Shown here: positions 38,154 to 50,983 of the stretch, piece after piece | Layout: every line of letters starts with the position of its first letter | Numbering within the stretch: the stretch's first letter is position 1 | Assembly (NCBI RefSeq): GCF_000422725.1 | Contig: NZ_KE383909.1 | Span: forward strand, 289,230 to 353,229 | Source of the DNA: Flavobacterium subsaxonicum WB 4.1-42 = DSM 21790 | GTDB taxonomy: Bacteria; Bacteroidota; Bacteroidia; Flavobacteriales; Flavobacteriaceae | Length of the DNA stretch: 64,000 nt | Reading direction: 5' to 3' | Program-made: the position numbers and the translations under genes | The notes under the pieces: generated by a model | What the model was told of the DNA's origin: nothing | Seen by the model: the letters and a program-made list of their open reading frames with translations, nothing else | Database searches by the model: none

Positions 38154-40487
38154 TCATATCAAATCTTTAAGCCTTAGGCTTTTGTTTGATAAATTAAATT
38201 TGTTGAACTTGTATTGTATAAATTGAGAGTAACGGTCTTCATGTGTCGATAATATTATTTGTTGATTGCTAAAATTGTATTTAAGTAGTTCTACAAGCGA
38301 ATGCGAGTTTATTTCATCTAATGTCTGAAGAGGATCGTCAATTAGAATAGTGCCCAGTTTAGAATTATTAAAAACTTTATTTAGAACCAGCATTAATGAA
38401 ATTACAGTTGCGGCTAATTGCCCGGATGATAATGTATAAGTAACTTCCTGATCGCGATATTTTGGCCTTATATAAATCTGTGAGCTTTCTTTGTTTATAT
38501 CAAGAATTAGAAGTAAACCAGAACCCAAAGTATGATTTTGTAGAATTTTGCCAGTATAAATGTAGAAAGGAATACTTATTTTTTCAACTATACTTTTTGT
38601 ATATAATCTAATTTTAGCATCTATCTTTTGCACAATGGCATTTACTTCATTATAAAGATCTTCTAACTTATCTTTACGTTGAAGAAGGCTTTGAAGACTT
38701 TTGTTGAGAGCATCATAATATTGAAATTGAATATATTGGCGTTTATGGATGAAGTCTTCAGTAGTAAGCTTTTCAAGTAATTCCTTGTTACCGGAAAAGT
38801 AAAGATTAAAATCTGTAATGATTTCGTCGATATTAATAGTGCTGTCAATTTGAGGTTTTTCGCGCTCAAGTAGGTGAGTTAGTTGGGCTGCCGTCTGCTC
38901 ACTGTCTTCCAATACACGGATATTCACCAGATTTGCAATATTTTGTTGTACTGTGGGAGCTACTGTTGAAATTAGATTGCCTATCAGACTGCTTAATCTT
39001 GTATAGTTTTGACTAAGAATTGCAAACCTTGAACTGTCGATAAGTGAGCTATTCTCTGTGTTTAATCTTTCTATCTGATCTTGGGCAAATGATTTTACCG
39101 TATTTAAAAAAACGGTGAGTAACTCGGATTTCATCTCCTCCAGCTTTGTGTTATCTGCTATGTAAGATTCAAATATCTTAGCTTCAGTAGCTGCGATATG
39201 ATTTATAAGTTCTTGGCTGCTTATCCAGTCGTATCCACATGTTGGGCATTGACCATCATCAAGCTTAATTAAAGGTCGGTGTTCATGTATTAGTTTATTG
39301 AGGCTCTCACGCTTGTCTTTTAGATCTGATAAGATTAAATTTTGTGCTGTTAAGCTATCCTTTTGAGCAACTATAAGCCTGAGTTTTACCAAGAAAAGTG
39401 GAAAATCAATTCCGGGCTTAGCAGTCTTCGTCTCTAATTCAAAAAGATATTTATTTGTTAATAGGCCTGAATAATCATTATCATTTATTAGAGTAATTAT
39501 AGACGAATACTCTGTGATATGTGTTTGATTATCTTTCCGCTTAGTGTCTTCCCCTTCAAGGACTGTAAAATTGGTAATGCTCCAATAGTTTTCAGTGATG
39601 GACTGCAGAATTGAAGCATCATTAAGAAATCTGTTTAACCTATGGAGTTGTAGTGCTGCTTCGACACTGTATCTGCTTTTATATAGATTTTCAATCTTGG
39701 AGATTTCTGTGAGGTAGGAATTGTGTATGTCTAGGTCGGTATTGTTAACTTTTGTGTTATCCCATGGCAAAGCAGTTGGTAAAGATTCTATAAGGAGTTT
39801 ATATTGCACCTCTGCAATTTCATTATTCAGAACATCTATATTACGGATACTGATTTGCGAAATTTCATTATTAATCTGCCCAATCTTCTCAATGATTTTT
39901 CTGCAAAATTCAATGGTCTTATCATGTAAAACTCTTTCTTCATTGCCTCCGAGTAGCGTGATAAGCGCCTTATAGCGATCTTTTGGATCTTCTTTTAGAA
40001 AGTAAGTATTTTCGTCCTGCTCAATATAGTTTAAAACATTAAACAGATTTTGTAGGTTTGAAAAACCTAATGCTACTTCAAGTGCTTGCTCGGTTGACTC
40101 TTTGTCATTTATGTACAATACTGAATCGGTAAATATTTGACCAACATTGTTTCTTTTTGATTCAGTGGTGCTTGCCGCCGGAATTACTCTTTTCAATACT
40201 AGGGGCTGATCATTTTCGGAATAAAAGACAGCGGATATCTCAATGGGAATATTTTCCAATTTATGAATTGGACTATTTTTGTACTTATATCTTTTGTCCA
40301 ACTTAACTTTTGCCAATCTTCGAGGTGTCTTGGTCAATAATATTTCTAGTGCTTCAAAAGCGGTAGTCTTACCATATCCGTTTGGGCCATCAAGTACAAT
40401 AAGATTGTTAGTGTCTAAATCGAAAATGATTTCATCAAAACATTTAAAATTCTTTATTGTAAGGCTTGAAATTTTATATTGTTCCAT
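38154..40487 (-). CDS. ABC-3C system SMC/Rad50-like ATPase
   Basis: A 777-residue cytoplasmic ATPase, the likely motor/sensor of a three-component defence system. The N-terminal Walker A is DGPNGYGKTTAFEAL (about 33-47). Long helical arms surround a CPTCGYDW motif near 417, resembling a Rad50-type zinc hook. The C-terminal part has the ABC signature LSSGQLAATVISL (about 682), Walker B TILIDDPLQTLDEINSH (about 712) and the H-loop ILSTHEDR. I chose the ATG at 40487 over a TTG two codons earlier; it overlaps the middle-component gene by 14 bp. Low GC compared with the chromosome on the left suggests transfer. Confidence 0.85.
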   Translation of the reverse strand: MEQYKISSLTIKNFKCFDEIIFDLDTNNLIVLDGPNGYGKTTAFEALEILLTKTPRRLAKVKLDKRYKYKNSPIHKLENIPIEISAVFYSENDQPLVLKRVIPAASTTESKRNNVGQIFTDSVLYINDKESTEQALEVALGFSNLQNLFNVLNYIEQDENTYFLKEDPKDRYKALITLLGGNEERVLHDKTIEFCRKIIEKIGQINNEISQISIRNIDVLNNEIAEVQYKLLIESLPTALPWDNTKVNNTDLDIHNSYLTEISKIENLYKSRYSVEAALQLHRLNRFLNDASILQSITENYWSITNFTVLEGEDTKRKDNQTHITEYSSIITLINDNDYSGLLTNKYLFELETKTAKPGIDFPLFLVKLRLIVAQKDSLTAQNLILSDLKDKRESLNKLIHEHRPLIKLDDGQCPTCGYDWISSQELINHIAATEAKIFESYIADNTKLEEMKSELLTVFLNTVKSFAQDQIERLNTENSSLIDSSRFAILSQNYTRLSSLIGNLISTVAPTVQQNIANLVNIRVLEDSEQTAAQLTHLLEREKPQIDSTINIDEIITDFNLYFSGNKELLEKLTTEDFIHKRQYIQFQYYDALNKSLQSLLQRKDKLEDLYNEVNAIVQKIDAKIRLYTKSIVEKISIPFYIYTGKILQNHTLGSGLLLILDINKESSQIYIRPKYRDQEVTYTLSSGQLAATVISLMLVLNKVFNNSKLGTILIDDPLQTLDEINSHSLVELLKYNFSNQQIILSTHEDRYSQFIQYKFNKFNLSNKSLRLKDLI

Positions 40488-41178
40488 TGTCAATCATATT
40501 TTTGTTGAATGCAAAGTTTTCTATATCGGTAACAGCTGCAATGTTTGAGTCATTAATTATTGCAAGGAGTGAAGCCTCTCTTTGACTTAAGGTTTCACTG
40601 ATCGAATCTGAAAGGCTATCAATAGCAAGGCTGTGATCTGCTGGCTTATAGTTTAAAAATGGAATTTTGATAAATAGGTTAAGTAGCAGGTCATACCATT
40701 GCTCTTCGATTTGGGATATAGCATCGCTGTGACTAATAGCAAGCTCATTTAATGTTTGAGCAACATTATCTGTTTCACTAATTCTTTCCTTCAAATTGGC
40801 CAGCACGTCGCCATGGTAGGGAAGTATATATTTTTTTGCATTAATATAATTCTCTTCAGCTTTATTAAATTCCTGGAATAGTAAAGGATATTCTGTATCC
40901 AGGTCAACAAATAATATAATTGATAGATTATAATTGATATTCCGTTCTTTAAATCGCGAAAGTATTTCAGATTCTTTCGTATTTACAACTAAAGTATTTA
41001 ATGCATATTCCAAAACTCGTATATTATTATCCGTAATTTGAAGAATGTCTTGGTAGTTATAAAACAATAAAAGAAAAAAATCATCCTTTTCCTCATAATA
41101 GGCAAAATCTAATTTTGGATCTACGTTAATGAATTCTAGCCCGGCTTCGCTAATTAGGCGATTTATGATGGTTTTCAT
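40474..41178 (-). CDS. ABC-3C middle component-like protein
   Basis: A 234-residue cytoplasmic protein of mixed helix/strand content, rich in acidic residues, without catalytic motifs I can see. Segments include PKLDFAYYEEKDDFFLLLFY and INYNLSIILFVDLDTEYPL. By size, by position between an Rad50-like ATPase and a nuclease-like effector, and by overlaps on both sides (4 bp ATGA upstream, 14 bp downstream) it fits the middle component of ABC-three-component systems, which links the effector to the ATPase. The assignment rests mainly on context. Confidence 0.7.
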   Translation of the reverse strand: MKTIINRLISEAGLEFINVDPKLDFAYYEEKDDFFLLLFYNYQDILQITDNNIRVLEYALNTLVVNTKESEILSRFKERNINYNLSIILFVDLDTEYPLLFQEFNKAEENYINAKKYILPYHGDVLANLKERISETDNVAQTLNELAISHSDAISQIEEQWYDLLLNLFIKIPFLNYKPADHSLAIDSLSDSISETLSQREASLLAIINDSNIAAVTDIENFAFNKNMIDNGTI

Positions 41179-42458
41179 GTATTTATTTCATTAATGGTTT
41201 CATCGATAGTTATAAATCCGAACAAACGTCTTTTTAATTCTTCGGGTGTTGCATTAGGATCTAAAATATTGACAACTTTTGATTTTATTTGTTCTTCCGT
41301 ATGTGTGAGATGTCGTGTAACATATAGGTCTACATCCAAAGTATTAGGGTGTTTGTAAAATTCTTCACAATGCTGCTGAAACTTAATTTGTTGCGGAGCT
41401 GAATTATCAAACTCACTGTTATGATTGAGCAGTTGGTATCGATTCTGTTCTCCACTGACACTAATTTTGGTATATTGAAGGTGCTTGTAAAAAGGTTGTT
41501 CTATTAAATTTCTTAAGGCTTTGAGGACAACAGATTTTACTGCTGCACCCTCTAAAAAACCACCAAAACTTTGGCGTAGGTTATTTTTATCAAGTGCCTT
41601 ATGTGGTGTCGTATAAAATTTGATTAACAATATAAGATCTTTATAAGGTAATTTTTCAAGTTCTACTATTGCTGATTGGATTTTAGAAAATTCAGCTAAT
41701 TGGTCCGCCTGATCCAAATCATATGCATCTAAGTCTTCAGATAGGAATTTTAAGAACAGTTTAGAAATTTCATACCAACATAGATCCTCTGAAAACGCCA
41801 ATGGTGCATCAATCCATTGTTTAATTTCTTTAAAGTCTATCTTTTCCTTCCTCTTACTGGCATGCCGCTCTTTAACAATCTTTGCAATGTTTAGACAGCA
41901 GTGGCTAACTTTAGCTGCTATATCATCATCGGTTAGGGTAGGATTTGCACAAGATATCCTAATAGCGTCGCTGAGTTTTTGATAGATGTTGGAAACAGTG
42001 TATACTCCCTGTATGCATGTGAAGTTTGTGGCTGCACTATACTTTGCCTCAAAATTTGATAGCCCCGGATTAAAATCAGCTATGATCTTATCCGTCAATA
42101 GCGTACATTTAATAGGCTTTTTTCGAATTCTTGGATAGTACTGGTGTATTCTTTTTCGCCCATCAGAAGGGTCCGCTATCACACGCTTATGATAATAGTA
42201 TTTATTAATGAGCTCTTCAATAACTTTTTTATACTTACTAATCTTATCTGCCTTGGGATCTAAATAAGCCTTCACCTGAAAAACTTCAATTTCATTTGTT
42301 TGAAGGGAAAAATCTTCATCTTCTTCCAACCTAAGGTAATAATCGTCAGGGATAGGTCCAACAATATTATTAATAGATTCAATGGCACGGCATAAAGCGA
42401 CCTCTCCTTGGAATATATATCCTGACCAACTGGGGGTTGCGTCGGTATTGACAATCAT
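41175..42458 (-). CDS. ABC-3C effector with PD-(D/E)XK nuclease-like N-terminus
   Basis: A 427-residue cytoplasmic protein, first gene of the ABC-3C operon. The N-terminus matches a restriction-endonuclease-fold domain of the Cap4/DUF4297 kind: WSGYIFQGEVALCRAIE (11-27), acidic residues in LRLEEDEDF (about 42-50) and VFQVKAY with Q61-V-K63, the expected D/E...QxK arrangement. The rest (about 150-427) is a helical region with KLPYKDLILLIKFYT and a C-terminal part typical of the module that couples effectors to the middle component. It probably cuts DNA after activation by the ATPase. Start is ATG; the stop overlaps the next gene by ATGA. Confidence 0.75.
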   Translation of the reverse strand: MIVNTDATPSWSGYIFQGEVALCRAIESINNIVGPIPDDYYLRLEEDEDFSLQTNEIEVFQVKAYLDPKADKISKYKKVIEELINKYYYHKRVIADPSDGRKRIHQYYPRIRKKPIKCTLLTDKIIADFNPGLSNFEAKYSAATNFTCIQGVYTVSNIYQKLSDAIRISCANPTLTDDDIAAKVSHCCLNIAKIVKERHASKRKEKIDFKEIKQWIDAPLAFSEDLCWYEISKLFLKFLSEDLDAYDLDQADQLAEFSKIQSAIVELEKLPYKDLILLIKFYTTPHKALDKNNLRQSFGGFLEGAAVKSVVLKALRNLIEQPFYKHLQYTKISVSGEQNRYQLLNHNSEFDNSAPQQIKFQQHCEEFYKHPNTLDVDLYVTRHLTHTEEQIKSKVVNILDPNATPEELKRRLFGFITIDETINEINT

Positions 42459-43231
42459 ACGCTTATAAATTTATATAGGACGCGAAATTTATCCTTTTAT
42501 CTTGTGATTGCAATACCCAATAGTAGGTATTTTTCACTAAAGAAAAAGTTGCTCTATTTTCCGACTATATAAAATCCAGAATTTTCACTTTCGATTTTGT
42601 GCTTTGTTTTGGATATCAGGCAGGATTTTCATGCAATTCTCGGCATTATATCTAATACTTCTTTAGCAAATAGTTAGCGAAAATGTACCATTATTGCTCA
42701 CAAATTCTTATTTTTTTTCTACTTAAGTATGAAGTCCAGGTCTATGTTATGACTTTAACTTTGCCTTCTGCCTTATTAAAATAGTACTGTAGTATGATTA
42801 AATATAGCGGTTTAATTTTACTGTTTAATTAATTTTATATAAGCACAAATTTGTATTTGAAACATTATGAATAATAAGGAAATAATAAAATGGCTAGGGT
42901 AATGTCCATGATGTAAAGTTTTAAATGAAACAATCTTACTACATCCTCTTCAACCCCTGCAAAAGCATTTTTCAAAAGAAAAAAGGGAAAAAAAGAAAGC
43001 CGCTCTGAAGTGTGCGGGGGCAAGCGGAGCGCTATAAGTTCCGAAGGGTGGCCAACGGCCTTTATGCGCGCGCAGCTTGTGCCCGTTCGATAACTTCGCT
43101 TGTCCATTTATCCCTTTTCGAATTGGGATAAGATTATTTCGTTATGTTTAAGTTCTTAAATGCGTAGAAATACTTGTTGAACCTATTCTTACAATTAATA
43201 TATTTACCGGATTACTAAAACACACCTACTA
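42459..43231. other. Divergent gene-poor region between two defence operons
   Basis: 773 bp between the leftward ABC-3C operon and the rightward helicase operon. The left two-thirds is AT-rich with nothing I can name; the right third holds the GC-rich element described separately. Confidence 0.6.
42960..43115. other. GC-rich structured element, possible ncRNA or element-specific repeat
   Basis: A sharply GC-rich block inside AT-rich flanks. It contains several self-complementary stretches: CCGCT...AGCGG, CGGA...TCCG, GGCC-AAC-GGCC and the palindrome TGCGCGCGCA. A minus-strand frame of 80 codons (43107 to 42865) crosses it, reading RTGTSCARIKAVGHPSELIA near its start, but its tail is a run of hydrophobic AT-rich codons and it may not be a gene. 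I associate similar GC-rich blocks with Bacteroidota conjugative elements from memory, which I cannot verify here. Confidence 0.4.
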
Positions 43232-44257
43232 ATGTTCGAAAAAGAAGCCGTGGAATATCGGAAAAATGCTCGTATTCTAAGATCATCAGAGGAACTTATC
43301 AAATTTGTCAGTACAGAAACCTATAACAGAATTGGATTTGTAAAGAAATATTTCACCAAAAGTTTTCTCAGGGTTTATGAAGTAACAATTACACAAAACC
43401 TGGTATATGAAATCCTCAAATTTGAAATAGAGACAGGACAGAAACTGGTTGACATTTATGAAGCAAAAAACGAAAGTACAAAGGGAGCGGACCTGCTGAT
43501 GGGACTGCAGGTTGGGACAGGTTTTCTGAAAATCCCAATGCAGGCGAAGATCCTTGATCCCCATGTACGGGAATTAAATGGCACCTATAATGCTTTTCAC
43601 CATAGAAACGAAACCGGAGTGCAGATTGACCTGCTGAATAACTATGCTGTAGAATGTAGAAGCCGCCTTCCATTGTACCTGCTGTATAATTACACTTTTG
43701 GCAGCCCCTACATTGAAGCAGGTGAAATAGAACATTTGTACGGGTGTTCTTATCTGTCTGCTGAAAAAATCCCTGCCGCGATTCTTGCCAAGAGCACCAT
43801 CAATTTCAGTGATTTCCATCCATCTCCTGGAAAACCATGGCATCATATGTTTAAAAGAAGAAACGACGGAAACGGAGGCAATAACCCACCAAACGAGCCG
43901 GAACTGGACGATCCAAACAGTGATATAAAAGAGTTTTACAGCAGGTTCGGAATGGATGTTACAGATGAATTCATCAGTACACTGACTTTTTATACCCATG
44001 AAGATCTGACGGCTGAAACTGATCAGTGGGAGCGCGTAACGATTGATAATTTCAATGATAAGGCCAAATCGCCGCGCATAAGGAAGCCTTTTTATAAAAT
44101 GGTCATGCAGCCGCTTCCTATGCGCCCCGACGGAAAGGAAGGCATTCCACAGTATATAGATGACAGGACAGGAGAATTTGATGTAGATGAAGATATATTA
44201 GAACAGTGGACAGAAGGAGTATCGATAGAAGAAGAACAAACAGAAGAAGCATACTAA
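43232..44257 (+). CDS. Nuclease-like protein with D...QAK motif (DUF6615-like)
   Basis: A 341-residue cytoplasmic protein, first gene of a four-gene operon. Residues about 60-160 fit a restriction-endonuclease-like core: a helix (NLVYEILKFEIETGQKLVDI), E81 and D87 in ESTKGADLLMGL, then IPMQAKIL with Q104-A-K106, followed by Q131-IDLLNNYA and LPLYLLYNYTF. This order of motifs resembles DUF6615-type proteins; I infer nuclease function but have no proof. A Gly/Asn-rich linker (DGNGGNNPPNEP, about 212-223) separates a C-terminal acidic domain ending EEEQTEEAY. The GC content is clearly higher than in the ABC-3C operon next to it. Confidence 0.65.
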   Translation: MFEKEAVEYRKNARILRSSEELIKFVSTETYNRIGFVKKYFTKSFLRVYEVTITQNLVYEILKFEIETGQKLVDIYEAKNESTKGADLLMGLQVGTGFLKIPMQAKILDPHVRELNGTYNAFHHRNETGVQIDLLNNYAVECRSRLPLYLLYNYTFGSPYIEAGEIEHLYGCSYLSAEKIPAAILAKSTINFSDFHPSPGKPWHHMFKRRNDGNGGNNPPNEPELDDPNSDIKEFYSRFGMDVTDEFISTLTFYTHEDLTAETDQWERVTIDNFNDKAKSPRIRKPFYKMVMQPLPMRPDGKEGIPQYIDDRTGEFDVDEDILEQWTEGVSIEEEQTEEAY

Positions 44258-44277
44258 CCGAATAAAATAAAGAAGAG

Positions 44278-44610
44278 ATGGCAGGTGAAAAATTTCCGAT
44301 AGAAGATGATAGTGCAGTCTTAAAGCTGTCTTCACCAAGAAGGTCTGTGGGAGGCCCCTACAAGGTAGTTTTTACACACACGGCGGAACGTTATGCTATT
44401 GTGGCTTTGGATTGGGATAGCAAACCAAGCCTTGGGATCCGATGGTTCTGGGGAGCCAAAGGTAATCCCTGCTCAACAGGATATCCAACATGGTTTATCT
44501 ATCCTTCGGAACTTGTTTACAGCCTTCTTAATGGTCTTCCGCTGGATTATGCAGAGCGCAGGCAGCTTGACCGATACCTTACGGGTGAAATTGGTGGGAC
44601 AGAGCTTTAA
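44278..44610 (+). CDS. 110-residue protein of unknown function
   Basis: A small cytoplasmic protein with a disordered, charged N-terminus (1-22) and a compact aromatic-rich domain: YKVVFTHTAERYAIVALDWD, LGIRWFWGAKGNPC, GYPTWFIYPSELVYSLLNGL and YAERRQLDRYLTGE. The pattern of short strands followed by two helices suggests a small alpha/beta fold, perhaps an adaptor for its neighbours. I do not recognise the family. It lies 20 bp after the nuclease-like gene and 27 bp before the helicase gene, both on the same strand, so it is part of the same operon. Confidence 0.7.
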   Translation: MAGEKFPIEDDSAVLKLSSPRRSVGGPYKVVFTHTAERYAIVALDWDSKPSLGIRWFWGAKGNPCSTGYPTWFIYPSELVYSLLNGLPLDYAERRQLDRYLTGEIGGTEL

Positions 44611-44637
44611 TTAATATACATAGCAAAAAATACAGTA

Positions 44638-47600
44638 ATGGATATACCAGTACAGCATCTATCGGTTAGGATCCCATGGCATGACAGCGCCTGGAACGGA
44701 CGCGTATGCAGTCATCCCCGAGAAAACGGATCATGCGCCTTTCTTCCAAGAATAAGCGAGAACAAAGATCCGGATTTTGAAAATGAAATAGCCGGTCAGT
44801 GGATTCATGAACTTGCCCAGGACAGGCTTCCTCCGTGTGTGGCTGAAAAAGTACATTTCATGTCCGCCCATACTATAGAGCGAAAAGTAAAACATCCCTA
44901 TAGCTACAATCCTAATAATGCTGCTTTTTACGGGCATTACAGGGAAACTGCGTTACGTTATCCTGGTTACAGTTTTTCGGTGATACCTTATAGCTGGATG
45001 CAGAAGAACAGGGAAGATAACACATCAAAAAAAGCAATTGAGTTTGGATTGAGGTACGATCCCCAAAAAGAGCCTTCCCTTGGTTTTGAGAATACCTGGG
45101 TACAGCATATTGACAATCAGAGGGCTCTTCTTGATAAATTTGCAAGTCCTATTGTACCCAATGAATCGCTTGTCTTTATATATGCCAAAAACATACCGTT
45201 TGTAGAGAGCACATCTCGGGTTCTTATCGGAGTAGGATATGTAACGGAAATAGGTTCACTTACAGAATATGAGTATGGCGAGCTGCTGCCAGAAAGTTTC
45301 AGGAGCACCCTGTGGGAGAGACCTGTATTCCACTCGATACGTGAAGGGTATGCCAATGGGTTTCTGCTGCCTTATCAAGATTTTTTTACAGCTGCTGCCG
45401 GAAATCCGGAAATTTCAGTTTCAGAATACATAGCTTTTGCCCCATCATTCGAGGAGTTTTCATACGGATCAGAATGGGTATCCAACGATTCTGCAATTGA
45501 GTGCCTGCTTCTTCTGGCGGAAAAACTGAAAAAGATGGCATCATTTCTTCTATTTAACGATTACAGCGGACAGCTTGAATGGATCGATAAGGAAATCAGC
45601 AGGCTTTGGAAGTTGAGAGGGCCTTATCCAGGGCTCGGCAAAGTGCTTGAAGGCTTAAAAGTGCAGGGAGGACAAGGAATAGCCTGGGAGATAGACCATC
45701 TGGTAAGGGACAGCGAGATGAAAGTAGTTCAAAATCCATTGGATTACGTGAGAAAACTTTTTGACGGAGACTCATCATTCCTAAGGCTCAACAGGTATCC
45801 AATAGTGAGCGAAACCGTAAAGGCTACATATAAGGCATTGAGCCATGAAGAGAAAGACTTTCTAGAAATGCTCAGCAGGATGAACCTTTCGTCTGGACAG
45901 GTAAACAGTGTGATTGATGCAAAAGAGCATGAACAGCGAGAATACATAAAAAACCCTTATCTGCTATACGAGAAATCAAGGCTGGAAGAAATGGTATTTG
46001 ATATATCGATTATTGACAAAGCTGTCTTTACACAGGGGGAGTCAGGTTTATTGCCTGTTCCGCAGTATTTTGATATTTCTGATCCTCTTGACCAGCGCAG
46101 GATAAGAGCTTATGGAATAAAGATACTTGAACAGGCCTGTCTGGATGGCCACACATTGCTGGCTGATGAGCAGCTGGTGACCCGTTTTGATGAACAGCCC
46201 GTTAAACCTGCCTGTAATCCGTCACTGAGAAATCTTAAAGCTGTGGAGGAATTCCTTGCTGGCGAAATACAAAGATGTACTTTGGATCAAGACAGCTCCA
46301 GTTATTATTTCAAGCTAACCAGGATGACTGAAATAAAACAGAAAATCAGCGGTTTTGTGAGCAAAAGAATCCGAAGGTATATCAATCCTTCAATTGTATT
46401 GGACTGGAAAGGTATTATAGACATGGCAATAGAGAGACCGGATGCAGGTCTTCCTAAATGGCATATAGAAAAAGACCTTAAAGCTCGTAGTGAAAAAGCC
46501 GCTGCATTGGAAGTCTTGTCCAATTCGAAAGTATCTGTACTAATAGGCCCGGCAGGTACAGGTAAAACTACGCTACTGAAGGTACTGTGTGACCAGCCGT
46601 TTATAAAATCGGGAGCGGTACTTAAACTGGCCCCTACAGGAAAGGCAAGGGTAAAAATGGGTAAGGACGCCAAGACGCTGGCACAATTCCTTATCAGGGC
46701 TGACCGATACAATCCTGCCACCGGCAGGTATCATTTAAATCCCAAGGCGGAACAGCAGCATTATGAGACCGTCATAATTGATGAATCCTCTATGCTGACC
46801 GAAGAGCAGGTTGCCGCGGTACTGGATGCACTGACCGGGGTGGAACGCCTGATTTTTGTTGGTGATTACCGACAGCTGCCTCCAATAGGAGCGGGGCGCC
46901 CATTTGCTGATATTGTGGAATACCTGAGGTCTCAAGGTAAGGGCACTGCAGAGCTGGATGTTATTTTCAGACAATCAGAAAATGGTGAAATTCCACAGCA
47001 AGAACCCGACAGGCTTGATATCCGCCTGGCCAAATGGTTCAGCGATGATGAGATCAAGAAAAATGATAATGATATTTTTAAAGAGATAGCGGAGAACAGC
47101 TCTTGCGAGTGGGATAACATCCGCTTTGTGGAATGGCAGAGCCCGCAGCATCTCAGGGATATGATTATTGAGGTTACAAACTCGGAAATCCGCAATCTGC
47201 TTACGGTTGAAGGGATCGAGACGGACAGTGACAGGCTTAATTTTGACTTCTCGCTAGGAGGAACTAAGCCTTATGAAAATAACGATTGGATGGCATTTGA
47301 TATCGAGTCGGCAAAAAAAATTGAAAACTGGCAGATTATTTCACCGCTCCGCACTACAGGTTACGGTACCAAGGCAGTCAACCAGATTATTCAGGATTAT
47401 TTCCGTGGCAATACCAAAGAGAAGGCAATCAATCCGGGTTGGCAGAGGAAAATGAACAAACCTGTAGGTGACGATATGATTGTATATGGCGACAAGGTCA
47501 TCAACACCAGAAATATCCGTCTTGACAAACACTGGCACAAAACCTATCCTAAAAACGATGAAGCATTAAAATATATTGCTAACGGGGAGATCGGCATTCA

Positions 47601-48384
47601 TGTCGGTAAATATGGTAAGTGGGGTTATGAATCCCCACGGCCCCTCAACATAGCATTTTCATCACAGCCAGGTTATGCATACCAGTTTCAGGAAAGCGAT
47701 TTCGGTGAAGGTAAAGATCTCAACCTTGAGCTTGCCTATACCATAACGGTTCATAAATCCCAGGGAAGTGGTTTCAATACAGTGCTTTTCATACTTCCCA
47801 ATCCTTGTCCGATTTTATCACGCGAACTTTTCTATACCGCCCTTACCAGGCAGGAGAGCCGTGTGGTTATACTTCATCAGGGAGATTTCAAGGATTACCG
47901 AAAGTATACGACCGGTGAATATTCTGAATCGGGCAGAAGGCTGACCGACCTTTTTGAGGTGCCAAAGCTGAAAGAAATCAAAAAGAAATATTACGATTCC
48001 AGATATGTCCAGGTTTCTGAAAAGGGTGAGTTTATGATCTCGAAATCAGAAGTCATCATTGCTGATAAACTATATCACAATGACATTCAGTATGTCTATG
48101 AATCAGCGGTTACCGACGATAGGGGTATCATGATACATCCTGATTTTATTGTGGAGGATAAGGACAGCGGGATTGTCTATTACTGGGAACATCTGGGGAT
48201 GCTCACCGATGATGGTTACCGCAGCAAATGGCAACGGAAAAAAGAATGGTATGAGAGGGCCGGAATTGTTGAATATACTACAAATCCCCAAGCTGATATA
48301 CAGCTTATCCTGACAAGGGATAAGCCTGACGGTGGAATTGATTCACAGGAAATAAAAGAAATTATTGACAGGCTTTTTAAATAG
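44638..48384 (+). CDS. RecD-like superfamily 1 helicase with C-terminal nuclease-like domain
   Basis: A 1248-residue cytoplasmic DNA helicase. The first 600 residues are a non-helicase region beginning HLSVRIPWHDSAWNGRVCSH, with cysteines (RVCSHPRENGSC) that could bind metal. The SF1B motor follows: Walker A LIGPAGTGKTTLLK (about 633-646), Walker B VIIDESSML (about 711), VGDYRQLPPIGAG (motif III), YTITVHKSQGSGFNTV (about 1035) and FYTALTRQESRVVIL (about 1062). The C-terminus (about 1130-1248) shows SEVIIADKL, HPDFIVEDKDSG and YYWEHLGML, the E...PDF...ExL layout of a PD-(D/E)XK nuclease. It would unwind and perhaps cut DNA. It is third of four operon genes. Confidence 0.88.
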   Translation: MDIPVQHLSVRIPWHDSAWNGRVCSHPRENGSCAFLPRISENKDPDFENEIAGQWIHELAQDRLPPCVAEKVHFMSAHTIERKVKHPYSYNPNNAAFYGHYRETALRYPGYSFSVIPYSWMQKNREDNTSKKAIEFGLRYDPQKEPSLGFENTWVQHIDNQRALLDKFASPIVPNESLVFIYAKNIPFVESTSRVLIGVGYVTEIGSLTEYEYGELLPESFRSTLWERPVFHSIREGYANGFLLPYQDFFTAAAGNPEISVSEYIAFAPSFEEFSYGSEWVSNDSAIECLLLLAEKLKKMASFLLFNDYSGQLEWIDKEISRLWKLRGPYPGLGKVLEGLKVQGGQGIAWEIDHLVRDSEMKVVQNPLDYVRKLFDGDSSFLRLNRYPIVSETVKATYKALSHEEKDFLEMLSRMNLSSGQVNSVIDAKEHEQREYIKNPYLLYEKSRLEEMVFDISIIDKAVFTQGESGLLPVPQYFDISDPLDQRRIRAYGIKILEQACLDGHTLLADEQLVTRFDEQPVKPACNPSLRNLKAVEEFLAGEIQRCTLDQDSSSYYFKLTRMTEIKQKISGFVSKRIRRYINPSIVLDWKGIIDMAIERPDAGLPKWHIEKDLKARSEKAAALEVLSNSKVSVLIGPAGTGKTTLLKVLCDQPFIKSGAVLKLAPTGKARVKMGKDAKTLAQFLIRADRYNPATGRYHLNPKAEQQHYETVIIDESSMLTEEQVAAVLDALTGVERLIFVGDYRQLPPIGAGRPFADIVEYLRSQGKGTAELDVIFRQSENGEIPQQEPDRLDIRLAKWFSDDEIKKNDNDIFKEIAENSSCEWDNIRFVEWQSPQHLRDMIIEVTNSEIRNLLTVEGIETDSDRLNFDFSLGGTKPYENNDWMAFDIESAKKIENWQIISPLRTTGYGTKAVNQIIQDYFRGNTKEKAINPGWQRKMNKPVGDDMIVYGDKVINTRNIRLDKHWHKTYPKNDEALKYIANGEIGIHVGKYGKWGYESPRPLNIAFSSQPGYAYQFQESDFGEGKDLNLELAYTITVHKSQGSGFNTVLFILPNPCPILSRELFYTALTRQESRVVILHQGDFKDYRKYTTGEYSESGRRLTDLFEVPKLKEIKKKYYDSRYVQVSEKGEFMISKSEVIIADKLYHNDIQYVYESAVTDDRGIMIHPDFIVEDKDSGIVYYWEHLGMLTDDGYRSKWQRKKEWYERAGIVEYTTNPQADIQLILTRDKPDGGIDSQEIKEIIDRLFK

Positions 48385-48386
48385 AT

Positions 48387-49436
48387 ATGAAAACTCTACT
48401 AGACGCTTACAGGAATCTTGACAACTCCGTATGGGATTATTATGATGCTTTCAGGCAGCCTGGCGGCCTGAATGGCCCATTTGCAGCGGACATAAATTCG
48501 GCCTACACCCATCAGGATTTTATAAAGAGATATTACCGGCTTTCCGGTAAAGATGAGGTACTGCAGCAATTTGGCCCAGGTATGCTCTATGATGAAAGGG
48601 CTTTCCATACCAATTCCGTTTTCTTTTTTGGTATCCTAATAAGGGAAAATACAATCCTAAAGACACATCTTTTAAATGCCCGCAGGTCAAAGTTAAATTA
48701 TCCCCTGTTTCCATTGCTGTGGTTTCTGGCAGTGCTGTTCCATGATTTTGCAATGGAAATCGAAGACAACCCGCAAAATCATCCCATGCTTGATGACCTG
48801 AACGGCTTGTTGGCACATTATAATATTGAGCACAGCATATTAGATGTGGCACCGGATGGTGCTGATGAAAAATTACATGGCCTTATTTCTCTATATTTCA
48901 GGTATCGCAGCAACAACGGAAAGATTGACCATGGGATCTTAGCCGGTATATATCTATATGACCGCCTGGTAAAAATCAGACGTGAGAAATCAAAAAAGCA
49001 AAATGAACCATTAGGATGGCATCATTCACTAGAGAAGAAGTATGCACAGGCTGCAGCGGCTATTGCCTGTCATAATATGTGGACCCTTCCTTCGGACCAT
49101 GAAGATGTTATAGCATATACCGAAAGCGGTCTGCAATATCTTGTGCAGCCAGGATTCAGGGAAATTTCTTTAAATAACTTCCCGTTGTTGTTTCTTTTCG
49201 GCATTGTCGATAGCATTGATCCAGTAAAGCTTTACATGCGCGATGGTTACAGTGTATCGGAAATCCTCAGTAATATAAATATCAGTTTTACCAAAAGAGC
49301 GATGCGCCTTGAAAACAAGATGCATTCTCCACTAGTTTTTTCAAAGCTTGCTGCAAAGGCCACAGACCTTATAGGCTGGATGGCTGTCGATGTGGAAAAA
49401 GGAGAAAACTGGCTGGTTATTTCATTTAAGAAATAA
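48387..49436 (+). CDS. HD-type metal-dependent hydrolase-like protein
   Basis: A 349-residue cytoplasmic protein beginning 2 bp after the helicase stop. The histidine/aspartate spacing fits the HD superfamily: H74 (ERAFHTNSVFFFGIL), H119-D120 (LAVLFHDFAMEIED), H182 (KIDHGILAGIYLYDRL), H229 (AIACHNMW) and D275 (FGIVDSIDP). Five ligands in this order are typical of enzymes that cleave phosphate esters, such as nucleotide hydrolases and cyclic-nucleotide phosphodiesterases. The insert between H119 and H182 is long and acidic. A nucleotide-depleting or signal-degrading role would fit a defence operon; that is inference. I know no named system with this exact gene set. Confidence 0.72.
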   Translation: MKTLLDAYRNLDNSVWDYYDAFRQPGGLNGPFAADINSAYTHQDFIKRYYRLSGKDEVLQQFGPGMLYDERAFHTNSVFFFGILIRENTILKTHLLNARRSKLNYPLFPLLWFLAVLFHDFAMEIEDNPQNHPMLDDLNGLLAHYNIEHSILDVAPDGADEKLHGLISLYFRYRSNNGKIDHGILAGIYLYDRLVKIRREKSKKQNEPLGWHHSLEKKYAQAAAAIACHNMWTLPSDHEDVIAYTESGLQYLVQPGFREISLNNFPLLFLFGIVDSIDPVKLYMRDGYSVSEILSNINISFTKRAMRLENKMHSPLVFSKLAAKATDLIGWMAVDVEKGENWLVISFKK

Positions 49437-49828: not shown

Positions 49829-50470
49829 CTATTCATTGTCGATTGCACTAATAATGTCTTCTTTAATAAAATCCCAATAATTACCACGCAGGCAAACAGG
49901 ATCAAAATCACCATCGGCTTCAGTGAAATTTTTGAAATTTTCGCGGATTAGTGCCTCGTCGTGTGAATACTGGTAGCGTCTTTTATGAAGTGCTATCATC
50001 TCTTTTATACTATATCGGGGTAATACTTCATACAGATCATAAAAGTCTTTCTTGCGGCCTGTACGTTGCACAACATCGACTTTCATGGCTATAATCTCAT
50101 CTAAAGTTGCCATCCTTATTTCTTCGATTAGTAAAGGTGGTTCCATAAATGGGTCTCTTGTGTAAAAGAGGTCCAATTTTATGGTGTTTTCACGATCTTC
50201 TCCAACTAAATAAGACTTTCCCATTCCGGTTATTGTTCCAAACCCTTTGTCAACATACCCAAAATTAGCATCAAGAAAATCCTCAATGATTTTAAAATCA
50301 ATGGAGCCGTAGTCGGCATCAGTAAAAAGATCTATATCTACCGATAACCTATGCCCCAATTGCAGGCTGAGCGCAGTGCCGCCTACTAAGCGAAATTCAT
50401 CAAATTCTGTGGAATTCATAAGTAATACCAAGGTATTGCGAAGAAGTTCGTTTACCGTTTGCCAATGCAT
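49829..50470 (-). CDS. AbiEii/AbiGii-family nucleotidyltransferase toxin
   Basis: A 213-residue cytoplasmic nucleotidyltransferase-fold toxin. It shows the family motif FRLVGGTALSLQLGHRLSVD followed by IDLF (about 26-49; GG..A and DxD), a downstream KLDLFY strand and RKKDFYDLYEVL (about 139-150). AbiEii-type toxins in type IV systems transfer nucleotides to RNA targets and cause abortive infection; the antitoxin represses the operon. It lies 18 bp after the HTH-domain gene, fitting an antitoxin-toxin pair. The right side of the gene is normal; its 3' end abuts the alkB fragment, marking a recombination junction. Confidence 0.88.
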   Translation of the reverse strand: MHWQTVNELLRNTLVLLMNSTEFDEFRLVGGTALSLQLGHRLSVDIDLFTDADYGSIDFKIIEDFLDANFGYVDKGFGTITGMGKSYLVGEDRENTIKLDLFYTRDPFMEPPLLIEEIRMATLDEIIAMKVDVVQRTGRKKDFYDLYEVLPRYSIKEMIALHKRRYQYSHDEALIRENFKNFTEADGDFDPVCLRGNYWDFIKEDIISAIDNE

Positions 50471-50488
50471 AATTAAGCGTTATTATAG

Positions 50489-50983
50489 TTAGGGCTTATG
50501 GCTTCTCGTGAACTTAGCCTTTGTACTAGGGTTTGAGATGATACTCCGTACTTTCGGAGTTCCATAAAACCGGATTATTTCTTTCTTTTCAGTAATATTC
50601 CCCCTTTCAAATATCCGCTCAATGACTGCCTTTGACTTTTTCTCCCAGTCAATTGTATCAATATCCGTATCCCAGAACAAGCTTTTTCTCAGGCGCGTAA
50701 TATTAGGCTTTGTTATTGTGGCATCTTTTAATTTTTGGATTTCAATGTCATAATAGGTTTGTAGTACCGCTAATGCACCTTCTTCCAAACTAAGCGCTTT
50801 TTCTATTTTTAAAGCGGCTGATAAGGGTAAAGGCCTTTTTGCTTTTATAATCTGGTTAAAAGATTGAGGTGCAATACCTATTGTTAAGGCAAAAGGGCGT
50901 TGTGCAAGTGCTCTTTTTTTTAGTTCACGTGCTACTATCGCTCCGGGATGGATTCCTTTATATTTATGAAATTGCATATCCAT
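50489..50983 (-). CDS. HigA-like XRE antitoxin with DUF6922-like C-terminus
   Basis: A 164-residue cytoplasmic DNA-binding protein, probable antitoxin and autorepressor. Residues about 10-70 are an XRE/HigA-like HTH: HPGAIVARELKKRALAQRPF, LTIGIAPQSFNQIIKAKRPL, SAALKIEKAL. Residues about 95-145 carry LRKSLFWDTDIDTIDWEKKS and IERIFERGNITEKKEIIRFYG, a module I recognise from antitoxins paired with AbiEii nucleotidyltransferases (DUF6922-like). The start could be the ATG at 50983 or two codons later. A TGTAAGCA inverted repeat overlaps its promoter. Confidence 0.82.
   Translation of the reverse strand: MDMQFHKYKGIHPGAIVARELKKRALAQRPFALTIGIAPQSFNQIIKAKRPLPLSAALKIEKALSLEEGALAVLQTYYDIEIQKLKDATITKPNITRLRKSLFWDTDIDTIDWEKKSKAVIERIFERGNITEKKEIIRFYGTPKVRSIISNPSTKAKFTRSHKP

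Follow-up and report, generated by a model that had tools for sequence, protein, structure and literature searches.

McrBC and SauUSI are modification-dependent type IV restriction enzymes. EVE and YTH domains are described as specificity modules of modification-dependent restriction, including McrB-type systems (PMC7641849), and CMoRE is described as a single-component type IV system (PMC12923530). A separate source states that the PDC families were found by guilt-by-embedding and that validation is pending for most of them (PMC12988326); from its PDC-S naming we take the S to denote a single-gene candidate. One of these families, PDC-S68, is a phage-defence candidate of PADLOC-DB 2.0.0, and a member of it lies at the center of the locus described here. 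The DNA analyzed is a stretch of 64,000 nucleotides (the window) from Flavobacterium subsaxonicum WB 4.1-42 = DSM 21790, contig NZ_KE383909.1, positions 289,230 to 353,229, in which four closely spaced genes, numbered 1 to 4, follow one another (Table 1). We propose, with a probability of roughly 0.45, that gene 3 encodes a modification-sensing, ATP-driven, type IV-like restriction nuclease, and that genes 1, 2, and 4 would be local accessory or independent effectors.

The gene 3 protein matched the PADLOC profile PDLC05065 for PDC-S68 at 1398.8 bits, over residues 2 to 1247 of 1,248 and profile positions 2 to 1219 of 1,221, and three PDC-S68 models matched it in total (1399, 529, and 465 bits). 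Judged by these profiles, gene 3 is a full-length member of the candidate, unvalidated PDC-S68 family. An earlier note on this DNA, made from the sequence alone, could not match the four-gene set to a named system; gene 3 itself, at 1399 bits, does belong to a named family. The name PDC-S68 was not found in a literature search that left out bioRxiv and most subscription journals. Relatives of gene 3 were sought by tblastn across 84,980 species genomes, giving 481 matches at E ≤ 0.001, which may include other RecD-type helicases; full length was seen for the best 80, and the locus analyses rest on these 80 of the 481 matches, which are near full length. According to their record titles, the best 80 come from Bacteroidota, Pseudomonadota, Bacillota, Chloroflexota, Planctomycetota, Actinomycetota, cyanobacteria, archaea, and others. 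Within its own phylum, gene 3 was present in 9 of 395 sampled genomes (E ≤ 1e-20), and within its own genus in 3 of 150 (E ≤ 1e-50), with its own genome counted both times; the other two genus members are 39% and 33% identical. Plasmid records matched in 172 cases, 8 of them spanning at least 80% of the query, and phage records in 5 cases, 2 of them spanning at least 80%. Two contigs of Methanolobus profundi (L047 and L048) have near-identical stretches in which a gene 3 relative (46% identity) adjoins a gene that looks by eye like a phage terminase, and this copy is possibly provirus-borne.

The middle part of gene 3 gave the strongest structural and sequence matches. Residues 400 to 585 aligned with RecD2 (3gp8) at Z 10.8 (root mean square deviation [rmsd], 4.7; 160 aligned) in VIA-align, which served as a second look at Foldseek candidates and in which a Z below 8 may reflect a common arrangement. 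The HHH_RecD2 family was matched by 20 of 63 gene 3 family members (best E, 1.4e-6). The superfamily 1B (SF1B) helicase core that follows contains a Walker A motif, G637-x-A639-G640-x-G642-K643, and the further motifs D715-E716 and R1071, and its nearest solved sequences are RecD2 (3e1s and 3gp8) and RecD (1w36). However, gene 3 stayed below both equivalog cut-offs, scoring 190.1 bits for RecD2 TIGR01448 (cut-off, 500) and 126.7 bits for RecD TIGR01447 (cut-off, 310.15). A motor of this type leads to the main rival explanation, in which gene 3 would be a modification-blind, end-processing helicase-nuclease of the RecBCD/RecD2 kind that breaks down linear phage DNA or intermediates of replication, with an N-terminus that binds a DNA structure or a partner. 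That the best matches fall in the RecD2-like region and core speaks for such an enzyme, but we consider it rather unlikely: the score stays below the RecD2 cut-off, and RecD2 itself is not known to have either an N-terminal domain of the gene 3 type or a nuclease.

The N-terminal region is what would set gene 3 apart as a sensor. An AlphaFold2 model of residues 1 to 612, built with 63 sequences, reached a predicted local distance difference test score (pLDDT) of 90.7. Residues 3 to 303 or so aligned with the YTH domain of Mmi1 at Z 7.6 (rmsd, 3.3; 125 aligned), and other VIA-align matches of the N-terminus were PH1033 (Z 6.5), MJECL36 (6.0), 2ar1 (5.9), and THYN1 with 5-methylcytosine DNA (5.9). 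We take PH1033, MJECL36, and 2ar1 to be EVE-type proteins. Among the 50 matches listed, all 13 that span approximately residues 3 to 303 were YTH/EVE-type chains, with Z values of 5.4 to 7.6; these 13 represent five distinct proteins, seven of the rows being Mmi1. Such agreement on one superfamily argues against the end-processing explanation. A long insertion in the N-terminal region carries C24, C33, and C67, which are invariant in 63 sequences and may form a metal site, of zinc or an iron-sulphur type. When the region was aligned with EVE proteins, W120 and N160 fell on the first W and the N of WDGVRN, W154 fell one position off the second W, and the gene 3 segment SLVFIYAK fell on the FYHS strand, a residue correspondence that is only suggestive. 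The N-terminus of gene 3, as modeled, would be a modified-base reader.

At the other end of the protein, the earlier note had seen a nuclease-like terminus, and the predicted structure fits the PD-(D/E)XK type. The AlphaFold2 model of residues 1082 to 1248 (48 sequences; pLDDT, 84.2) has the core order alpha-beta-beta-beta-alpha-beta, and the motif there reads P1168-D1169-F1170 ... E1184-H1185-x-G1187. E1138, D1169, and E1184 were at least 98% conserved in 91 proteins. VIA-align matched the model to 3hrl (Z 8.3; rmsd, 2.6; 85 aligned), I-Bth0305I (8.0; 3.2; 90), VRR_NUC (7.8; 3.3; 90), TnsA (7.8; 3.0; 97), and Vsr (6.3), with a mitoribosome chain tying for the top at Z 8.3, and a Z near 8 is middling according to the tool. 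Foldseek returned no match at E ≤ 0.001 for the same model, and R2, Bax1, and other nuclease-bearing chains topped its list; a sequence search with the C-terminal profile found no relative among solved structures. Weak Pfam matches among the 48 C-terminal members were to TPD, presumably a nuclease-like family (22 members; best E, 0.0026), DUF7200 (11 members; best E, 0.00099), and PAS_7 (5 members; best E, 0.02). The modeled fold and the acidic catalytic-type residues together agree with a putative PD-(D/E)XK-type nuclease.

A single chain that combines a reader-like N-terminus with a RecD2-type motor and a nuclease points to type IV-like logic. In the mechanism we propose, the YTH/EVE-like domain would recognize a modified base, or some related feature, in incoming DNA. 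Powered by ATP, the RecD2-like SF1B motor would then translocate and unwind that DNA, which the PD-(D/E)XK domain at the C-terminus would cut. Gene 3 alone would be the working part, a single-chain restriction-type machine.

The genomic neighbors of gene 3 relatives were tallied, a neighbor being a same-strand open reading frame (ORF) of at least 60 amino acids no more than 120 bp away, with ORFs called mechanically. A full gene 3 ORF was present in 79 of the 80 genome loci, and 49 of these 79 had a same-strand neighbor. The other 30, a few of them at contig ends, had none within 120 bp, and members that can stand alone in this way are what the end-processing explanation would allow. Upstream neighbors (n = 42, families overlapping) matched Pfam ResIII in 9 cases, DEAD in 8, N6_Mtase in 6, and HsdM_N in 5, and downstream neighbors (n = 22) matched ResIII in 5 and Methylase_S in 4. 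Each set includes four viral-contig loci, and neighbors shorter than 100 amino acids had been dropped (6 of 48 upstream and 7 of 29 downstream). Taken together, the tallies and the lone loci indicate that family members frequently adjoin restriction-modification genes and frequently stand alone. A Sulfurospirillum relative (62% identity) stands behind HsdR- and HsdM-type genes, and a Pedobacter relative (59%) stands behind a 2,278-residue protein that carries domains of the sacsin/HATPase and SF1 helicase types. The copies from Bacteroidales (63%) and Cloacimonadota (58%) are near contig ends. Because relatives adjoin adenine methylases, N6-methyladenine (m6A) is an unlikely target, and modified cytosine would be a more plausible one.

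Several observations weigh against the proposal that gene 3 senses modified DNA. The best N-terminal Z value, 7.6, is inside the range that the tool regards as a possible common arrangement. Foldseek found no match at E ≤ 0.001 for the N-terminal model in the Protein Data Bank or among viral models, the Pfam EVE and YTH families were matched by none of the 63 N-terminal members at E ≤ 1, and the N-terminal profile, searched by sequence against solved structures, gave no relative (best E, 0.085). In hhalign, the N-terminus scored 19.0 to 19.9 against 30 EVE proteins, whereas 40 column shuffles gave means of 13 to 15 and maxima of 23.7 to 24.1; the control, the C-terminal nuclease domain, reached 24.1 against EVE, above all of its own 40 shuffles. 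Since the control outscored the N-terminus, the EVE profile test does not favor the N-terminus. The failure of the reader domain in the sequence-level tests counts toward a modification-blind, end-processing enzyme. In addition, many relatives lie beside adenine methylases, so that m6A as such cannot be what the domain attacks, and the operon in the window has no methylase. The restriction-gene tallies are raw counts with no background rate, and genes 1, 2, and 4 are left unexplained by a model built on gene 3. A wider form of the proposal holds that PDC-S68 proteins are a distinct class of one-chain, ATP-driven, modification-dependent restriction enzymes, with a YTH/EVE-like reader that bears a three-cysteine insertion, a RecD2-type motor, and a PD-(D/E)XK nuclease. 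Such enzymes would back up restriction-modification systems across bacteria and archaea, and on this element a second nuclease and an HD enzyme would have been added to form a multi-effector cassette. We regard this wider form as possible, though doubtful.

The earlier note had further proposed that the four genes make up one defence system, conserved as a unit in defence islands. Its account of the locus itself was accurate: the coordinates and spacing were borne out, with all four genes on the same strand, all with ATG starts, and with gaps of 20, 27, and 2 bp, and the motifs it cited are present and conserved, in a four-protein alignment for gene 1, in a three-protein alignment for gene 4, and as Walker A and PDF...EHxG in gene 3. 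The G+C content at third codon positions is 39 to 43% in genes 1 to 4, 28 to 29% in the operon upstream, and 32 to 35% in the gene pair downstream, and because it departs from both flanks the four genes resemble a single compositional block. Promoter- and terminator-like sites around the four genes were no more frequent than in shuffled sequence.

Table 1. Positions of genes, predicted domains, and flanking features in the window
Feature	Position	Strand	Description
Divergent three-gene operon	38154-42458	-	upstream of the four genes
Divergent intergenic region	42459..43231		773 bp, 5' of gene 1
Gene 1	43232..44257	+	341 amino acids; DUF6615-type, D87...Q104-A-K106 nuclease-like motif
Gene 2	44278..44610	+	110 amino acids; small family, RWxG...GxPxS.G...W.I.P core
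Gene 3	44638..48384	+	1248 amino acids; PDC-S68-type helicase-nuclease
Gene 3, N-terminal YTH/EVE-like (PUA-like) fold	44638..45546	+	residues ~1-303; predicted model, VIA-align
Gene 3, C24 to C67	44707-44838		three-cysteine part of N-terminal insertion
Gene 3, RecD2-like region before helicase core	45835..46392	+	residues 400-585; VIA-align, HHH_RecD2 matches
Gene 3, SF1B helicase core	46483..47871	+	residues 616-1078; AAA_30 102 bits, UvrD_C_2 37 bits
Gene 3, PD-(D/E)XK-type nuclease domain	47881..48381	+	residues 1082-1248; E1138, D1169, E1184-H1185; predicted model
Gene 4	48387..49436	+	349 amino acids; HD-pattern protein
Downstream gene pair	49829-50983	-	AbiEii-type and DUF6922 genes
Transfer genes	between 53589 and 62562		TraG P-loop, conjugative-transposon TraM, DUF4138

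In a single system, DNA would be attacked by the helicase and two nucleases under the control of a nucleotide signal or deoxynucleoside triphosphate pool that gene 4 makes or clears. The shared strand, the short gaps, the third-position composition unlike that of the neighbors, and the conserved catalytic-type residues in genes 1 and 4 all fit this explanation, but the comparison of loci makes it quite improbable. Genes 1, 2, and 4 were searched by tblastn against 107 gene 3 loci, 27 of them viral (11 of these 27 with a gene 3 ORF above 900 amino acids), and the single match at E ≤ 0.5 was to gene 1; it lies just upstream of the gene 3 relative at locus L131, covers 42 amino acids at 28.6% identity with an E of 0.33, and was treated as chance. 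Profiles of the gene 1, 2, and 4 families found nothing at E ≤ 1 among 1,318 ORFs of loci L044 to L135. Genes 1, 2, and 4 were absent from the gene 3 neighborhoods in the phylum genomes, on plasmids, and at the two same-genus loci, and they were not beside gene 3 in the two of its four closest relatives (58 to 63% identity) that have full flanks. Some flanks are short, such as those of L044 (4.7 kb) and L046 (1 kb upstream), both among the four closest relatives, and the absence of genes 1, 2, and 4 is therefore strong, not total. Conversely, two strong gene 4 relatives have no gene 3 in the stretch around them (13.9 kb at L041 and 6.3 kb at L042), gene 1 relatives have other partners, either a UvrD helicase together with a methylase or a weakly HNH-like gene together with an AAA ATPase, and the operon contains no recognizable signal-making enzyme. 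With no gene 1, 2, or 4 relative beside any gene 3 relative examined, conservation as a unit does not stand, and a conserved four-gene defence system was rejected for want of recurrent co-occurrence in the examined gene 3 loci. What survives of the proposed defence set is that gene 3 is a catalogued helicase-nuclease candidate and that catalytic-type residues are conserved in genes 1 and 4. The four-gene set was not seen in literature searches either.

Returning to gene 3 as the proposed sensing nuclease, we infer its defence role, and likewise the roles given to genes 1, 2, and 4. On the conjugative element that carries the locus, gene 3 would have been joined by the nuclease-like gene 1, the small gene 2, and the closely spaced HD-type gene 4, which are probably accessory or independent effectors recruited locally, or cargo. 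Gene 1 matched Pfam DUF6615 (PF20320) at 28.7 bits, above the gathering cut-off of 23.8. Four DUF6615-type proteins, when aligned, all share E81, G85, D87, Q104, A105, and K106, and we take the D...QxK arrangement to be a nuclease-type pattern of the kind seen in Mrr-type enzymes. Sequence searches gave gene 1 no solved relative, no other copy in the 395 phylum genomes (E ≤ 0.001), no phage match, and no relative in viral scans; the DUF6615 Pfam family occurs in two other genomes of the 395. The literature search described above did not find DUF6615. On the Spirosoma linguale plasmid pSLIN01 (L040:5009-16612), a gene 1 relative that falls below the DUF6615 cut-off (20.6 bits) stands behind a UvrD helicase gene, with one gene separating it from a DNA methylase; farther on are a ResIII/TnsA-like protein and an annotated HNH gene, with two genes in between that look MotA/OmpA-like by eye. 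In a same-genus genome (L155:5738-8399), a DUF6615 gene, an AAA_21 ATPase gene, and a weakly HNH-like gene stand in line, an arrangement that is Septu-like plus an extra nuclease-like gene. With such differing partners among its relatives, gene 1 has the appearance of a mobile nuclease-like module.

Gene 2 matched 13 plasmid records by tblastn (E ≤ 0.01), and its core was seen in an alignment of six; the plasmids are from Rahnella, Lacticaseibacillus, Thermus, Shewanella, and Roseomonas. No Pfam, PADLOC, or NCBIfam family above its cut-off and no phage match were found for gene 2. Its family loci are L035 to L039, and at L035, L036, and L037 the proteins scanned had no Pfam family. In gene 4, H74, H119-D120, H182, H229, and D275 are unchanged in both aligned relatives (32% and 27% identity), so that the order H...HD...H...H...D is conserved and the protein fits the pattern of a putative HD-type hydrolase or nuclease. 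Its hydrolyzing a nucleotide or signal would be a guess. Gene 4 matched no Pfam (up to E 1), PADLOC, NCBIfam, or PHROG family, and its three-sequence profile aligned weakly with five HD groups in hhalign (best P, 0.0084). The 395 phylum genomes held two strong relatives of gene 4 (E of 5e-23 and 3e-18) and four short ones (E of 0.001 to 0.008), and the families of the two gene 4-bearing genomes (86 and 79 genomes) yielded only those two again plus one short broken stretch. Neither the gene 4 protein of the window nor its L041 relative had a plasmid match, the L041 relative had no phage match, and viral scans gave no relative of gene 4.

The surroundings of the four genes agree with those given in the earlier note, which had placed them between an ABC-3C operon and a toxin-antitoxin pair on a mobile island. 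The end genes of the divergent operon upstream matched PADLOC LmuB (197 bits) and LmuA (58.6 bits), and this operon is consistent with a Lamassu-like/ABC-3C system. Downstream, an AbiEii-type nucleotidyltransferase (81 bits) and a DUF6922 partner (83.6 bits) make up what is, by family assignment, a type IV-style toxin-antitoxin pair; the DUF6922 protein is also weakly HigA-like (35.4 bits; cut-off, 47.7). TraG, TraM, and DUF4138 genes follow within the window, a relaxase gene lies about 35 kb past its end, and the four-gene set is, on this gene content, carried by a conjugative element among defence and toxin-antitoxin genes. The genes could in principle serve that element, in DNA processing, repair, or plasmid competition, and not phage defence. 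Their location with TraG, TraM, and relaxase genes, and the occurrence of gene 2-type and gene 3-type genes on plasmids, would suit such a role, but gene 3 relatives adjoin restriction genes in genomes of many phyla and no transfer genes are among the neighbor families listed (25 of 39 and 25 of 26), and we judge it highly improbable.

The gene 3 family matters more than the four-gene arrangement, which is probably a local assembly. Although PDC-S68 is listed only among defence candidates, its relatives occur widely and often adjoin restriction genes. A domain model of base reader, SF1B motor, and nuclease makes the family testable and predicts that phages with modified DNA are those stopped. 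The family itself is already catalogued; the reader-motor-nuclease model for it was not seen in literature searches, none of the papers listed in the search described above combined an EVE domain with RecD, and the main text of DefensePredictor (PMC13092281) contains no RecD, DUF6615, HD domain, or PDC.

Compared with known systems, gene 3 stands closest to PDC-S68, aligning end to end with the best model. That family is, by its name, a single-gene candidate, whereas gene 3 here is third in a four-gene operon. With the RecD2 and RecD SF1B helicases it shares the core motifs and the region before the core; unlike them, it adds an N-terminal region of about 300 to 400 residues and a C-terminal nuclease, and it scores below their equivalog cut-offs. 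DUF6615 is represented by gene 1, which exceeds the Pfam cut-off, and other members of that family have other partners. HD phosphohydrolases and nucleases share the H...HD...H...H...D order with gene 4, although no Pfam or NCBIfam family matches it. Finally, with type IV enzymes such as McrBC, SauUSI, CMoRE, and the EVE/YTH-fused enzymes, gene 3 would share the proposed logic of a base reader, an NTP-driven motor, and a nuclease. It differs from them in having an SF1B RecD2-like motor with a PD-(D/E)XK domain, and its modification dependence is a proposal.

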